This document shows positions 7,040 through 43,334 of a DNA stretch of 46,715 nt, in pieces (the stretch's first letter is position 1; each line of letters begins with the position of its first letter). Source of the DNA: a virus; the IMG/VR virus record IMGVR_UViG_3300047198_000009, positions 1 to 46,715 of that record. One strand, written 5' to 3'. The notes under the pieces are model-generated. The model saw only the letters and a program-made list of their open reading frames with translations, did not search any database and was not told the origin of the DNA. A program made the translations under genes and the position numbers.

Positions 7040-7049
7040 TATGAAATAC

Positions 7050-7174
7050 GGGGTAGTAGCGAAACGGTATCGTCCTTCAGCAGGTCTGAGGTGAACAAAC
7101 AGCATAGGAATATGCTCCGGTTGCAAACGTCTTATTATATGCTGTCGTAGCAGGTTCGACTCCTGCCTGCCCCA
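7050..7174 (+). tRNA. Aberrant tRNA-like RNA with 58-nt variable region
   Basis: The acceptor stem GGGGTAG (7050-7056) pairs with CTGCCCC (7167-7173), discriminator A 7174. The D arm is canonical (7059-7073, T8, A14, GG in the loop, A21). A 5-bp anticodon-type stem (7075-7079/7087-7091) has a 7-nt loop GCAGGTC without the usual T33. The T arm is canonical (GCAGG TTCGACT CCTGC). The segment between anticodon and T arms (7092-7149) is 58 nt, far longer than in class II tRNAs, and can fold as ACAGCATA pairing with either TATGCT or TATGCTGT. It is probably not a working elongator tRNA. Confidence 0.55.
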
Positions 7175-7183
7175 TTAAACGCT

Positions 7184-9130
7184 ATGTATAACTGGCAAAC
7201 CAAAATCCAAGCAGTGCGCGGCGTCGGCCCTGTCCGAGCGAAAGAACTCGCGGGCCTCGGTGTCACCACGGTCGGCGACCTCCTCGAATACCGGCCAAGC
7301 GACTACATATTCCCCGGCACGACCCCCATCCGTGACCTCCGCATGGGAGAGCAGGCGTTGATACAGGGGACGGTCATTGATATTCGACGGCTCCCGACCC
7401 CGGCTCCGATAGTGGCAGCGATTGTCGAGGACGAGACCGGGAAGATAGGACTGACGTGGTTTAATCAGATTTATTTATTAAACTCAATTCAGAAGGGCAC
7501 AAAGATTACGGTCTGGGGCAAGGTATCAGTATATAAAGGATTTTTACAATTCTCAGGCCCGAAGTTTAGCACGTGTAATTTCAAACAGAACGAGGTGGCC
7601 GGTGGTCTCTACGGCGTTCACAGCGAAACGATTCGGACGGCGTTAAGAGCCGTGCTGGCGGATGTCGAGATACTTGATTGGATTAACCCCAACCTGTGTG
7701 ACCGGGCGGACGCTTTTTATTTCCTGCATTTCCCGGAAAACAAGCAACAATTAGAAGATGGGTTGGAACGCTTAAAATTTGACGAATTATTTATTCAACA
7801 GATGGCGGTTGCTATCAAGAGACGGCAACAGGCCCGGCAGGGGGCGGCGGTAATGGGGCTGGATAAACGAGAACAGGTATTGAGATATTTCCCGCATAAA
7901 TTAACTAATGACCAAACTCAGGTCATCGCCGACATCTGCTCAGACCTATCAAGTGGCCGGGCGATGCGGCGGTTATTACAGGGCGAAGTTGCAAGCGGGA
8001 AAACTTATTGTGCTTTTTTCGCAGCGATGCTTGTTGCCCTTAATAATAAACGAACAGTCATCCTCGTCCCAACGACCATCTTGGCTCAGCAACATTTTGA
8101 CACCCTTAAAAATTTTGGGCGGAATGACTGTTGCTTGTGGTTAGGGGGGATACAACCCGACCCCGGCTATTTGCCAAAGATTATAATCGGAACAACGGCT
8201 ATTTTAAGCCGAACAGATATTCTAAAATTAACCTCTCTTGTTATAGTTGATGAACAGCACAAGTTCGGAACTCAACAGCGGGCTATTTTACAAAAATACG
8301 GTAATCCCCATTTACTGATGCTCTCAGCAACCCCCATCCCTCGCACACTTGTTCAAACGGTCTTCGGCGACCTCGACATATCGACCATCCGCGAAATGCC
8401 GATTAAACGTGGGGCCGTTGTGACCCGATGGGTACTGCCAGACCGCCGTGAAGGCGTTTACGAAGTAATTGACGAACAACTGAAACAGGGCCGTCAGGTT
8501 TACATTGTGTATCCCCGTATCGCCAGCGGCGAGGAAGATATGACTGGCGTGGCCGAGGGATACTGTGATATAACCCGGCGATTCGCTGATTACTCCGTTG
8601 CCAGCTTAACTGGCAGAGACATAAGCGAAGTTAAGACGGATACGCTGCGGAAATTCAAATCAGGAGAATACAATATACTTGTCAGCACGGTCATCGCCGA
8701 GGTGGGGTTAGACTGTCCGAACGCAACGGTAATGCTTATTGAGGGAGCCGACCGCTTTGGCTTGAGCCAATTACACCAACTAAGAGGAAGGATAGCCCGT
8801 TCAACCGAAACAGCGTTCTGTTTTTTAATGGCTTCCACCGCCAACGACACATCAATCGCCCGGCTTCGGACGCTGGAAAAAACAAACGACGGTTTCGAGA
8901 TAGCCGAGGCCGACCTCCGGCTCCGGGGGCCGGGGGAATTATTTAATACCCGGCAGCACGGATTGCCTGATTTGAAATTCGCGTCGTTAGTGAATGACTA
9001 CGACTTGTTGTTGGAGGCCCGCGAATTAGCGAAAAATTCTCTTGACAAACTGAACACGCCAGAGTATAATGGGGTTAGAAAAATGTTGGAAATTAAATTT
9101 CCGAAACTGGATATTGTAGGAGTTGGATAA
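7184..9130 (+). CDS. recG: RecG-like ATP-dependent DNA helicase
   Basis: A 648-residue protein similar in layout to bacterial RecG (about 690), which reverses stalled forks and migrates branched DNA. It shows the N-terminal GVGP element, a wedge OB domain (GLTWFNQIYL), a Walker A region LQGEVASGKT (about 265-274), the Walker B box DEQHKFG (about 354), LSATPIPRTL (about 379), the helicase C motif VSTVIAEVGLDCPNA and GADRFGLSQLHQLRGRI, and the TRG-like end DLRLRGPGELFNTRQHGLPD. The start ATG 7184 has no Shine-Dalgarno sequence and lies 9 nt after the tRNA-like element. It likely supports recombination-dependent replication with the polymerase, Sak4-like and nuclease genes. A promoter for the next genes is embedded near its end. 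Confidence 0.93.
   Translation: MYNWQTKIQAVRGVGPVRAKELAGLGVTTVGDLLEYRPSDYIFPGTTPIRDLRMGEQALIQGTVIDIRRLPTPAPIVAAIVEDETGKIGLTWFNQIYLLNSIQKGTKITVWGKVSVYKGFLQFSGPKFSTCNFKQNEVAGGLYGVHSETIRTALRAVLADVEILDWINPNLCDRADAFYFLHFPENKQQLEDGLERLKFDELFIQQMAVAIKRRQQARQGAAVMGLDKREQVLRYFPHKLTNDQTQVIADICSDLSSGRAMRRLLQGEVASGKTYCAFFAAMLVALNNKRTVILVPTTILAQQHFDTLKNFGRNDCCLWLGGIQPDPGYLPKIIIGTTAILSRTDILKLTSLVIVDEQHKFGTQQRAILQKYGNPHLLMLSATPIPRTLVQTVFGDLDISTIREMPIKRGAVVTRWVLPDRREGVYEVIDEQLKQGRQVYIVYPRIASGEEDMTGVAEGYCDITRRFADYSVASLTGRDISEVKTDTLRKFKSGEYNILVSTVIAEVGLDCPNATVMLIEGADRFGLSQLHQLRGRIARSTETAFCFLMASTANDTSIARLRTLEKTNDGFEIAEADLRLRGPGELFNTRQHGLPDLKFASLVNDYDLLLEARELAKNSLDKLNTPEYNGVRKMLEIKFPKLDIVGVG
9042..9070 (+). promoter_or_regulatory. 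Consensus promoter inside the recG end
   Basis: TTGACA (9042-9047), a 17-nt spacer and TATAAT (9065-9070) lie in the last codons of recG. It would start transcription about 50 nt before the gene at 9130. Confidence 0.8.
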
Positions 9131-11299: not shown

Positions 11300-14226
11300 T
11301 GGAATCCTGGCAACAAATTCTGGCTGACTGCGGATACCCGACCGAGATTTTAACGGTCGATTTCGAGTCCTATTTCGATGACGAGTACCACTTCCGCAAG
11401 GACGCCGCCGACGCCGTTGGCCTCTCGACTATTGAATATATTAACGACCCGCGGTGGGGGTTGACGGGGTTGGGTGTCGGAGCGAGCGTTAATTATTTCT
11501 GGGACCCCGAACATCTCGAAACCCGCCTACGGGAAATTCCTATAGACGAATATACCGTCGTCATCCAGAATAGTAGGTTTGACATCACCATCCTACAGAC
11601 AAAATTCGGAATCGTACCTAAGTATATAATCGACATTAAAGATTTACACGCCCACTACGACGCCAGTGCCAGCCATAAACTCAAAGATATGGCCAAGGAG
11701 TTTGGCCTACAGGCCAAGGGCGAGACCCAGGATTTCAAAGGGTTACACTACGCCTCGATGACTGATGAACAGCGAAAAGCGTTGCAGGAATACTGCCTAA
11801 ACGACGTAGATTTGGAAACGAAACTATTCAAAATCCTCCTACCAAAATTATCTAACCCGGCCTTTGAACTTAGGCTCCAACGTCATACCCTCGATATGTG
11901 GCTCCATCGCGGCTTTGATTTCGACCGGGACTTGGCCGATTCGCTTAAGGTCCAGATGTACGCTTTGACCATCGAAGCCGTGAATAAAACGGGGTTGGTT
12001 GATGAGAACTACGGGCGATTATATAATAAGTATTTCTGGGACGGTAAAAAAATCCCCAAGAAATTCGACGGGAAATCAGACGCCGCCGTGGAGATTATGA
12101 TACGAAAAGAAGCCCGCGAGGCCGCCGCCACGGACCTCCGTGGAGATACGTTCGTGAAATTACTTCAAGTTCAGGGCGAACAGGTCGAATGGAAGGCCGG
12201 CAAACGTGGGAACATCGCGGCCCTGGCCAAGACCGATGACTACGCGAAATCGTTAATGGTCCACGGGAATCTGATTGTCCGCGATTTAATGACCGCAAGG
12301 CAGGCCGTGAAGTCCTGGCCCCTACATACGAAACGCATAACGAGTATGGAGAAACAATCTGCCGCAAATGGCGGGATATTGCGAACCCCTCTAAACTATT
12401 ACGGCGGCCACACGGGCCGATGGTCAGGCGGCGAAGGGATTAACTTACAGAATTTAGGCGGAAAAAGTGCAACGATTGACCCCCTGATAGGCAAGATACG
12501 CGGCCTACTCCGCACCCCCGCCGGTTTCACGCTGGGTATTGGAGACTCGGCTCAGATTGAGGCCCGTGTGTTGGCTTGGCTGGCCGGTCAGGACGATTTA
12601 ACCCTGGCTTTTGCTGATGGTAAAGATGTATATTCTGAATTTGCAGCCATTTTATTTAGAACCCCTGTGCGTAAAGAACGAAAAACCGACCCTCTTATAG
12701 TTTATTTAATACTGATGATTAAACGGGCTTTTGGTAAAAAAAGTATTCTGGGTTTGGGATATGGTATGGGGGTCGATAAATTCTATCAGCAATGTTTACA
12801 AGACAGTTCTTTACGCTCCGCATTTGATAGCGGTCAGTACAATCGACAATTTATACAGCGGGCCGTAGATACCTACCGCACTCGCTATGCAAAGATTCCC
12901 GCATACTGGCGGTCGGTAGAAACCGCGTTCAAACAGGCATTACGATTTCCACATTTACACCCCACAGTAGGACAAATAGAATTTTCGTGTATTGGTCACG
13001 AAGTCCAGATTAAATTGCCGTCTGGTCGAATACTGTATTACAGACAATGCAGCGTTAAAAATGGTGGGAATATATCCTATTTAGCCGGCCCTAAGAGGGA
13101 AAGTTTATGGGGCGGGTCTCTTTGTTTGGCCGGGCATACAGAAGTTCTAACAGATAGCGGCTTCTTATTTCTGCAAAATATACACCCGCAAGATAAAGTC
13201 TGGGACGGGAGTAAATGGGTGCCACATAGTGGACTGATGTACAAAGGGGAGCAGTCAGTAATAGGGTTAAATGGCATTGATTTAACCAGAGAGCATAAGA
13301 TAATGTCAAATACGGGGTGGGTATATGCGGCAAAGGCACAAGGACTTACTTGGGCAAAAGTTTGGGGACCTAATAGTGTTAGAGAGCCTGGGGTCGAACG
13401 GGAAGAATTGGGCATGGCTGGTTCGTTGTCAGTGTGGGAGAGAATATGTCACGCTTGGAAAAGGCTTAACCAGAAAACGTGGAATACGTTCATGCCTTCA
13501 ATGTTCCTCGCACAAAAAAGGAAAGAATCAAACGCACGGCATGACCCAGCATCCTGTTTACTGGGTTTGGCGTTCTATGTGCGACAGATGCGAATTGCCT
13601 TCACACCAGGCATAGAAAAATTATGGAGGGCGTGGGATACGGGTATGTCTGCGGTGGAAAGAATCATTTTTATGCTTCTGGGAGGATATGAGGAACGGCT
13701 ATGCTCCGGGGCTTCAGTTAGACCGTATAAACAACAACGGAAACTACGAACCGGGAAACTGCCGGTGGGCGACCTTTGTACAACAGGCCAACAACAGACG
13801 CGGGAATCTGAATTTAGCCGTGAATATCCCAGCGTTGTCGAAAGAAACGGGCATTGGTCGAACGACACTATATTACAGACACCACCACGGGCTTCCGTTG
13901 CTCCAGTCTTCGACCTAATGAACTGTGGCGACAATAACTGTTTTACCGTTAAAGATGGGCAGGGGAAATTGCGTCTGGTGCATAACTGCGAGAACATAGT
14001 TCAGAGTGTCGCAAGGGACCTCTTGGGGTTCTGGATACTGGCCTGTGAAGATGCCGGATTGCCCGTTATTTTATCGGTGCATGACGAAGTGGTATGCCAA
14101 ATAAATAAAAATAATTCCAAGATTTCTCTTGACAAACTGGAACAAATACTGTATAGTATTCCTGAGTGGGCGTCGGGCCTACCTGTGGCTGCTGAAGTTA
14201 AAGAATCGAGTGTATATTGTAAGTAG
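11299..14226 (+). CDS. polA: Family A DNA polymerase with 3'-5' exonuclease, interrupted by an intein
   Basis: About 975 residues as translated; about 687 after splicing. Exonuclease boxes: DFESYF (about 21), QNSRFD (about 92) and YCLNDVD (about 165). Polymerase motif A is GDSAQIEAR (about 415), motif B is [15 protein letters not shown] (about 475) and motif C is SVHDEV (about 926). The usual GxLxENIVQ segment before motif C is split: GGSL, then 288 intein residues (609-896), then [13 protein letters not shown]. The unspliced protein would lack an intact palm, so splicing is presumably essential. The start at ATG 11299 overlaps the preceding stop (TAATG); ATG 11269 is an alternative. This is the replicative polymerase, partnered by the primase-helicase at 19107. 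Confidence 0.9.
13123..13986 (+). other. Intein in DNA polymerase (Hint domain)
   Basis: The 288-residue intein starts at Cys1 ([13 protein letters not shown], block A). Block B is LTREHKIM with the conserved T-x-x-H. Block F is [15 protein letters not shown] and block G is LVHN followed by Cys+1 of the C-extein. About 70 N-terminal and 35 C-terminal residues form the splicing core. The intervening part of the frame is not a recognisable in-frame endonuclease; instead the same DNA encodes an HNH protein in another frame. The insertion site is beside polymerase motif C, a typical intein hotspot. Confidence 0.88.
13325..13918 (+). pseudogene. HNH homing endonuclease nested in a second frame of the intein, split by one TAG
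   Basis: Read one base out of register with the polymerase (frame +1). ATG 13325 follows GGGGTGG (13314-13320). The N-terminal part has [37 protein letters not shown] and [20 protein letters not shown], then TAG at 13613-13615. The same frame continues [34 protein letters not shown] and QQANNRR, with a C-terminal HTH ([14 protein letters not shown]) to TAA 13918. This is the full domain order of phage HNH homing endonucleases of about 197 residues. The TAG replaces a position that I recall as Tyr in the family. It may be a recent pseudogene, a readthrough product, or two fragments. Confidence 0.8.
14129..14157 (+). promoter_or_regulatory. Near-consensus promoter inside the polymerase end
   Basis: TTGACA (14129-14134), a 17-nt spacer and TATAGT (14152-14157). 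It shares 16 identical bases (14124-14139) with the promoter region at 9037-9052. It would serve the genes from 14236 onward. Confidence 0.75.
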
Positions 14227-17458: not shown

Positions 17459-18310
17459 ATGTTAATCAGTCAAGCAGGGTATTACAAAGGAACAGTATTA
17501 GACGGCGGGGTGGGAGAGTCCAGTGGCGGATTTCCCCAGTGTAATCTCGCCCTCAAGGCCACCGAGGTCTACGACCCGGAGACTGATTCGTGGCTCCCGG
17601 CCAACCCGGAGGCCGATGAAATCAATTACTATGGGACTCTGATGCAGAGGATTGATACAAAGCAACCAGCCAGTATCACCAACTGTACGGAAGGGGCTAA
17701 CGCCAAACAGGTTAAGAAAATTTTTGGTTGGGACGGGGCGAGTTATGCCGAATTACAAACCCTTCTTTTGCCTGATACGCCAATTCAGTTCCGGGTAGAA
17801 CCCAATACCTATAACGAAAAGACCACATTACAGGTCAGTTGGATTGATGAACCCGGTGCCTCCCCGGTCCGTGGCGTTCGTAAACTCGACGCTGATGGGG
17901 TGAAGGCTCTCCAGGCGAAATACGCTGGGGTGTTGGCCTCGACCAAGGCTCCGAAGAAGGCCGTATCGGCCCCGGTAAAGGCCCCAGTAACATCGGATAC
18001 CGTGGTGAAAGAGGTCGTGGCCGCTCTAACACCCACTAAACCGACAACAGCCCCCCCGAAACGGGCAGGCCGCCCCGCCGGGAAACCCGTTGCCCCCAAC
18101 ACCAACGTGGGAAAATGCACAGCCGATGAGGCGTGGGCCGCGGTATCATCGTTGAAACGCGATGACGTGACCGACGAGGTATTGACGACTGAATGGACAA
18201 CAGCGATTCAGACCGTGACCGGCGATATAAATACCGCCGAGGAAAAGATTACGCCAGAGAACTGGTTCCAGATTAAGGAATTGGTGCTGGCGAAGACAGC
18301 CAAGGTTTAA
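17459..18310 (+). CDS. Probable single-stranded DNA-binding protein
   Basis: A 283-residue protein. The N-terminal half (MLISQAGYYKGTVLDGGVGE... to SWIDEPG, about 140 residues) looks like an OB-fold phage SSB of the DUF669-like kind found beside Sak4 genes. A Pro/Ala/Lys-rich linker (about 158-215, KAPKKAVSAPVKAPV) follows. The last 60 residues form a helical acidic domain (TADEAWAAVSSLKRDDVTDE). AAAGGGG precedes ATG 17459. Function is inferred from context and domain layout rather than a strict motif. Confidence 0.65.
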   Translation: MLISQAGYYKGTVLDGGVGESSGGFPQCNLALKATEVYDPETDSWLPANPEADEINYYGTLMQRIDTKQPASITNCTEGANAKQVKKIFGWDGASYAELQTLLLPDTPIQFRVEPNTYNEKTTLQVSWIDEPGASPVRGVRKLDADGVKALQAKYAGVLASTKAPKKAVSAPVKAPVTSDTVVKEVVAALTPTKPTTAPPKRAGRPAGKPVAPNTNVGKCTADEAWAAVSSLKRDDVTDEVLTTEWTTAIQTVTGDINTAEEKITPENWFQIKELVLAKTAKV

Positions 18311-18320
18311 GAGTTTAGTG

Positions 18321-18371
18321 ACCAGCGTCCCTGACACGGTGGGATAGGGGGTTCGACTCCCCCTCGCTGGT
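18321..18371 (+). tRNA. Mini tRNA-like RNA lacking an anticodon arm
   Basis: A perfect 7-bp acceptor stem ACCAGCG (18321-18327)/CGCTGGT (18365-18371). A D-like hairpin TCCC TGACACGGT GGGA (18328-18344) is followed directly by a T arm of five G-C pairs plus one A-T around loop TTCGACT (18352-18358). There is no anticodon arm and no room for one: the total is 51 nt. It cannot decode. It ends 3 nt before the next ATG, which has no Shine-Dalgarno sequence. Confidence 0.6.
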
Positions 18372-18374
18372 TTT

Positions 18375-18503
18375 ATGATTAAACGGCTTATCTGCTGGCT
18401 ACTCGGCCACGACTACGACTGGCGTATGCGAACCCACCGCGACGGGACCGAGGACACACGGGACTACTGTAAACGCTGTGGCTGGATTGGGGAGTGGTGG
18501 TGA
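18375..18503 (+). CDS. DUF1660-like small zinc protein
   Basis: A 42-residue protein (MIKRLICWLLGHDYDWRMRT...YCKRCGWIGEWW). The layout, a GH motif near a hydrophobic N-terminus and a CxxC near the end, matches small phage proteins of the DUF1660 type. The TGATG overlap with the methyltransferase start implies coupling. No ribosome binding site is visible because the upstream sequence is the tRNA-like fold. Confidence 0.65.
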   Translation: MIKRLICWLLGHDYDWRMRTHRDGTEDTRDYCKRCGWIGEWW

Positions 18504-43261: not shown

Positions 43262-43334
43262 GGAGAACGGTGAGAATTGCACTCACGCCCTGCTGCTTGC
43301 AAAACAGCCGCTCTACTGTCTGAGCTACGCCCCC
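43262..43334 (-). tRNA. tRNA-Ala (anticodon TGC)
   Basis: On the minus strand: acceptor GGGGGCG paired with CGTTCTC (with G-U pairs), D stem GCTC/GAGC, anticodon stem GCTGT/GCAGC with loop TTTGCAA (anticodon TGC), a 5-nt variable region, and T arm GTGAG TGCAATT CTCAC. All arms are near-standard. The D loop lacks the usual GG and the discriminator is C, which is not typical for Ala, so function is likely but not certain. Confidence 0.85.

Follow-up and report, generated by a model that had tools for sequence, protein, structure and literature searches.

The phage genome analyzed here (IMG/VR record IMGVR_UViG_3300047198_000009; 46.7 kb, all 46,715 nt of it referred to below as the window) contains a 51-nt tRNA-like element without an anticodon arm at 18321-18371 on the plus strand, in the gap between a 283-aa gene and a 42-aa gene. 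Elements of similar build, termed mini-tRNAs below, are repeated through the operons of phages of Mycobacterium, Gordonia and Corynebacterium. Comparison of these genomes leads us to suggest, tentatively and at a little below an even chance, that diverse dsDNA phages use undescribed anticodon-less mini-tRNAs as intercistronic punctuation, with host tRNA-processing enzymes splitting operons into mRNAs of one to a few genes. This would be a bacterial counterpart of mitochondrial tRNA punctuation, with the window phage as a one-copy version giving a near-leaderless mRNA. For the window element taken by itself, we consider the chances evenly balanced that it is an intercistronic mini-tRNA which punctuates a polycistronic phage mRNA in cis.

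The plus strand of the window holds a replication block (helicase, DNA polymerase, exonuclease, Sak4-like protein, methyltransferase and primase), and a long minus-strand block includes a portal-like protein with a weak match to the SU10 portal. The element reads ACCAGCG-TCCCTGACACGGTGGGATA-GGGGG-TTCGACT-CCCCC-T-CGCTGGT, and no Shine-Dalgarno-like motif precedes the 42-aa gene behind it. The features discussed are as follows.

18321..18371, plus strand: anticodon-less tRNA-like element (mini-tRNA), entire
18321..18327, plus strand: 5' strand of the acceptor stem, ACCAGCG; A18321-T18371 may be an extra -1:73 pair outside the 12-bp core
18328..18346, plus strand: linker with D-loop-like ACGGT (18336-18340); also holds a non-conserved hairpin, TCCC (18328-18331)/GGGA (18341-18344)
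18347..18363, plus strand: T arm GGGGG-TTCGACT-CCCCC, 6 bp if A18346-T18364 is counted
18365..18371, plus strand: 3' strand of the acceptor stem, CGCTGGT, followed by TTTATG; CCA not encoded
17459..18310, plus strand: upstream gene, 283 aa, no family hit, stop codon 10 nt ahead of the element
18375..18503, plus strand: downstream gene, 42 aa, CxxC-type protein (PHROG 2670), ATG 3 nt past the element
7050..7174, plus strand: second, larger tRNA-like element of about 125 nt, filling the gap 7040-7183 before the ATG at 7184 (helicase gene)
43262..43334, minus strand: ordinary tRNA-Ala(TGC), for comparison

The minimum-energy fold of 18321-18371 reproduces these acceptor and T-arm helices exactly, at -24.8 kcal/mol (z = -2.0 relative to shuffles). 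The acceptor stem has 7 bp without mismatch; the T arm adds 5 bp, or 6 when A18346-T18364 is included. Together they form a helix of 12-13 bp, for which the best reading is a core of 12 bp (CCAGCG/CGCTGG and AGGGGG/CCCCCT) and the extra A-T pair outside. A first-pass annotation of the sequence had described a tRNA-like RNA without an anticodon arm, having a perfect 7-bp acceptor stem and a T arm with a TTCGACT loop, that could not decode; the fold confirms this anatomy, and the missing anticodon arm bears out the last point. Of the canonical tRNA features, the 12-bp acceptor/T helix and a T-loop of the form TTCRANY are present, and the cloverleaf with an anticodon arm is not. ARAGORN and Rfam make no call at this position, and the Rfam tmRNA model matches the T arm alone (13.5 bits, gathering threshold 47) rather than as a whole. 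A descriptor combining T-loop, T stem and an acceptor strand 8-34 nt upstream has a single hit in the window, with a score of 32. Among 300 dinucleotide shuffles of the window the top score was 28, and hits scoring at least 24 are expected at 0.08 per window; the element is not a chance fold. BLAST of the element against INPHARED returned nothing beyond T-arm pieces, and no second copy of its exact T-arm/acceptor half was found in IMG/VR. An attachment-site remnant is an unlikely identity, as the element has both strands of the acceptor and its gap falls within the replication genes. A Y RNA was also considered and is unsupported.

When IMG/VR was scanned with the primase and with the 283-aa protein, about 20 related loci emerged, among which G001 (protein identity 79-91%) is the sole near relative with an element in the corresponding gap, ACCAGCGA-CCCGGTGGCGATTCT-GGGGG-TTCGATT-CCCCC-TCGCTGGT. 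The acceptor/T-arm letters of the two elements are identical at 30/31 positions, versus 65% at four-fold degenerate sites of the neighbouring genes and 70% in the upstream gene. The probability of such identity is about 3e-5 at 0.65, 2e-4 at 0.70 and 0.009 at 80%, the four-fold value of the tiny 42-aa gene. The middle sections differ by insertions and deletions. The D-like hairpin noted in the first-pass annotation folds in the window (TCCC/GGGA) but is absent in G001, which retains instead a CGGT motif resembling G18-G19 of the D loop; compensatory changes anticipated in that stem are thus not seen, the stem itself being unconserved. Covariation, which had been proposed as a check, is likewise absent in the close family, where G001 stands alone and its stems are unchanged but for a swap in the pairing of the junction T (its partner A belongs to the T-stem side in the window but to the acceptor side in G001, with equal helix length), yet it is massive in the wider class described below. 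The far relative G005 has a weaker, 37-nt version at another genome site, also ending TTTATG ahead of an ORF start. In the remaining relatives the equivalent gap holds other hairpins, terminators or nothing similar, with a classic terminator-like hairpin in L055. A CGGTGGC-like motif was also observed in the equivalent gap of L061, L064, L054 and L053, and in the window at about 18337-18342, beside differing stems (GCGAGGCGG/CCGCCTCGC, GGTGGGGCGG/CCGCCCCACC), some followed by TATTTTTGG. No single common structure could be built from this motif and the hairpins of relatives without the tRNA-like form.

A pattern with the acceptor sequence of the window element fixed gave 11 hits, several in unrelated contigs, and a control with a non-complementary acceptor gave 5. 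Because the control produced about half as many, single hits were judged by their extra pairs, and most of them are not evidence. A pattern scan with a different acceptor gave no hits. Pattern hits in bacterial chromosomes mostly look like chance matches with poor T stems. Many copies per genome, with differing stems, occur in L045 and L075; G010 has 6 and G009 about 13 distinct copies, all on one strand. BLAST with the G009 and G010 copies led to Gordonia phages Amore2, GMA7 and VanLee, Corynebacterium phage PSonyx, and Mycobacterium phages Fowlmouth, MrMiyagi, Cuke, Indlulamithi, Send513 and Rope. In the leftward small-gene block of VanLee, 16/16 internal gaps contain a mini-tRNA, including weak ones read by eye: 13 lie wholly within the gap by descriptor, and the other 3 were read by eye or cross a gap boundary. 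A scan of 296 actinobacterial genomes, with a strict filter that may miss some copies and with positive-control phage records that matched, gave one good match (L107:1501-1543, 51 bits), a few nucleotides after a stop codon and possibly in a prophage. Compared with Rfam 15, the mini-tRNAs of four phages matched nothing; ARAGORN reports no mini-tRNAs, and a literature search of freely available full texts found no description of the class. These 40-50 nt anticodon-less elements repeated through phage operons constitute a previously undescribed class, of which earlier notice elsewhere is possible.

The class consensus comprises A(-1), six acceptor pairs (often GCCCNG/CNGGGC), a linker starting AAYGGT, six T-stem pairs ending GG/CC, the loop TTCGANT, and A(73); CCA is not encoded. 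Among 46 distinct rows, the conserved linker columns are G (42/43), G (43/43), A (37/43), A (34/43) and T (33/43). AAYGGT reads as A14-R15-Y-G18-G19-U20 of a D loop fused directly to the acceptor stem, and by analogy with tRNA structure an elbow contact between G18-G19 and the T-loop is likely. The stacked helix is exactly 12 bp in 34/50 elements, which is the acceptor-plus-T length of an ordinary tRNA, while the branch point within it moves (8+4, 7+5, 6+6, 5+7).

As elements picked by a pairing descriptor are circular evidence for pairing, the helices were assessed with anchoring on the T-loop only. Outer T-stem pairs are complete in 53/62 elements so anchored, versus 6% with partners swapped between elements, and an acceptor run of at least 6 is found in 42/62, versus about 15%. 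In 14 elements from five phages, selected as paired, 9/12 pairs vary on both sides, a level reached by 0/500 shuffles. The covariation score of 46 distinct model hits from six mycobacteriophages is 0.714, compared with 0.132 when shuffled, the alignment being made by the model and hence leaning towards it.

In MrMiyagi, Cuke, Indlulamithi, Send513, Rope and VanLee, a T arm is present in 62/69 gaps of 60-135 nt; in these six phages 81 T arms lie on the gene strand and 0 on the opposite strand, with 9/81 wholly within annotated genes. In these mycobacteriophages the mini-tRNA begins 8-9 nt past the stop codon (median 9), and about 45 nt separate its 3' end from the following start. The sequence that follows in other phages is ACG or CTAAA, with no T run, and behind the mini-tRNAs come a short second hairpin and then a Shine-Dalgarno sequence. 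In small-gene gaps of L097 and L102-L106, a second hairpin such as GTCATTG..CAATGGC precedes the ribosome-binding site, and VanLee also has a recurrent GGCACGGCACCCAAC; such hairpins and recurrent sequences are possibly 5'-end protection hairpins or start-associated sequences. Several annotated small-gene starts overlap mini-tRNAs (L101:17073-17114, L101:20667-20713 and similar cases) and are probably start-codon miscalls, with the true starts downstream.

The window copy agrees with the class in architecture (12-13 bp of acceptor plus T arm, no anticodon arm, D-loop-like GG in the linker) and in placement, being on the sense strand within a gap and 10 nt past a stop codon (about 8-15 in the class; median 9). 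It differs in a linker of 19 rather than about 11 nt, in T rather than A at position 73, and in its acceptor, and it is a lone copy rather than one of a series, with the next ATG 3 nt away versus about 45 nt in the class. Covariance model R1, built from other phages, gives it 16.9 bits (E about 1 in 300 kb), too low for recognition as a member, whereas full-length copies in other phages mostly score 21-62 bits; the low score results from the longer linker and the different acceptor. Judged by its layout, the window copy has the class architecture and probably works like the class. Because it fails the covariance model, common descent with the class is not claimed, and the link is architectural.

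In the punctuation model, host tRNA-maturation enzymes would recognise the elbow and the 12-bp shape and cut the transcript. The enzymes would be RNase P and/or RNase Z, with RNase P acting at the 5' side and the 3' cut made by RNase Z or a different 3' processing nuclease. Bacterial RNase P touches the acceptor and T stems only and can bind without the rest of the tRNA; a minimal helix of 12 bp is cut by it (PMC11221534). The missing anticodon arm would then be immaterial to RNase P and RNase Z, and its loss would bar the product from translation. The cuts would separate an upstream mRNA, with its 3' end just beyond the stop codon, from a downstream mRNA, and the fixed distance past stop codons would give a terminating ribosome room. 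In the window, the 3' cut would produce a downstream mRNA starting TTTATG or TTATG, nearly leaderless, for the 42-aa gene. Counting against the model, E. coli RNase P prefers RCCA and the mini-tRNAs encode no CCA; so does the presence, in the equivalent gap of distant relatives of the window phage, of other hairpins or nothing tRNA-like, and so do the lone occurrence of the window copy, its low model score and its other departures from the class.

In animal mitochondria, tRNA shapes between genes mark the sites at which polycistronic RNA is cut into near-leaderless mRNAs. Punctuation by tRNAs was reportedly described there by Ojala and colleagues in 1981, a study cited in PMC4666369. The animal mitochondrial marks are real tRNAs, whereas those of the phages are non-decoding miniatures that would be cut in the same manner. 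The tRNA-like domain of tmRNA consists of acceptor, T arm and D loop, without a D stem or anticodon arm. The mini-tRNAs share this layout but lack an mRNA-like part or tag, and are tiny, intergenic and multi-copy. Plant mitochondrial t-elements mark mRNA ends through cleavage by RNase P/RNase Z, with CCA added and no amino acid (PMC11658184). Like the mini-tRNAs, they are non-decoding tRNA-like sequences at mRNA ends without encoded CCA, and they are cut by tRNA-processing enzymes, as the mini-tRNAs may be; unlike them, they derive from tRNA genes and are predicted to keep typical tRNA-like structures. Mini-tRNAs, at 40-50 nt, lack the anticodon arm and in most cases the D stem as well, and they recur in almost all gene gaps of phage operons. 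Among phage RNAs, host RNase P cuts the M3 RNA of phi80 and the pre-C4 antisense RNA of P1/P7 (PMC11143913); these are single RNAs, while the mini-tRNAs form a dispersed series between genes for which cleavage is proposed here.

If the punctuation model is correct, phages sequenced and annotated for years, among them Mycobacterium smegmatis phages that serve teaching and research, hold an overlooked layer of gene organisation, and tRNA punctuation extends from organelles to phages. The mini-tRNAs would then offer natural minimal substrates showing what RNase P and RNase Z need. The model would also explain why gaps of about 90 nt occur so regularly in these genomes, and annotated gene starts that overlap elements could be corrected.

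Other explanations account for parts of these data. An uncut structural insulator, a stable fold after the stop codon that shields the 3' end of the upstream mRNA from exonucleases or separates ribosome termination from the next initiation, would suit the tight spacing of 8-9 nt past the stop, the stability of the window fold, and the other strong hairpins that fill the equivalent gap in distant relatives. A plain hairpin would suffice for such a role, however, and the T-loop, the D-loop GG and the 12-bp total are tRNA-recognition features kept across unrelated phages, so that we regard an insulator as unlikely, though worth weighing. The window copy might instead be a decaying tRNA gene, now without D and anticodon arms: within the clade it is confined to two close phages, their middles differ, and the window also holds a true tRNA-Ala and the larger odd tRNA-like element. 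Decay would be expected to strike the stems as well, yet stems and T-loop are kept at 30/31 positions against 65% at silent sites, and the shape recurs with covariation in other phages; this origin is improbable.

The first-pass annotation had left the role open among a processing signal, a regulator and a decoy of tRNA enzymes. Of these, a processing signal is now best supported. Members of the class sit in cis, one to each intergenic gap and without exception in sense orientation, which makes a decoy or trans-acting regulator less likely. As a trans-acting tRNA mimic, the copies would titrate host tRNA enzymes, EF-Tu, tRNA-directed defence nucleases or Ro/Rsr-type proteins. Several of the phages are multi-copy, genes for a Ro-like protein and an RtcB ligase are present in VanLee and PSonyx respectively, and bacterial Y RNAs (YrlA), which have a tRNA-mimicking domain, are reported in mycobacteriophages according to work cited in PMC12282133. 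The fixed distance from stop codons nonetheless points, with the strand and the single element per gap, to a cis role; the window phage has one copy, and no Ro-binding stem or module is seen in the mini-tRNAs, so titration seems quite improbable. A simple terminator, which the first-pass annotation had set against its own reading, fits poorly. An intrinsic terminator or attenuator ahead of the 42-aa gene would be consistent with a GC-rich helix followed by TTTT and with the hairpin in the L055 gap, but there are four T only and they lead into the ATG of the 42-aa gene, the identity of the T-loop would be unneeded, and the mini-tRNAs of other phages run into ACG or CTAAA. We consider this explanation very improbable.

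The larger tRNA-like element at 7050-7174 consists of an acceptor (GGGGTAG/CTGCCCC), a D arm (GCGA..TCGT) with GG, an anticodon-like arm, an insert of about 57 nt that contains ACAGCATA/TATGCTGT, and a T arm (GCAGG-TTCGACT-CCTGC). It is missed by Rfam and by ARAGORN, also with introns allowed, and G001 has other DNA at that place. The gene behind it likewise lacks a Shine-Dalgarno-like motif; about 13/44 checked starts do, and the coincidence for both element-preceded genes is not significant (P = 0.08).

Further tRNA-like or structured RNAs were observed in other genomes. On the minus strand of L043, at about 13000-13360, a Pseudomonas-like prophage region has several tRNA-like hairpins (GGTTCGAATC / GGTTCGACTC) with long closing stems (GCCGTGCGGG/CCCGCACGGC). 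L040:9696-9758 and L041:8246-8308 (minus strand) are 63-nt tRNA-like sequences with a CAT anticodon-like loop, a T arm and an acceptor but no D arm, adjoining a normal tRNA-Lys, and are possible D-armless phage tRNAs. In Send513, a GOLLD RNA (Rfam RF02032, 180 bits) lies at L105:20206-20666, in a gap for which the record has no annotated feature.
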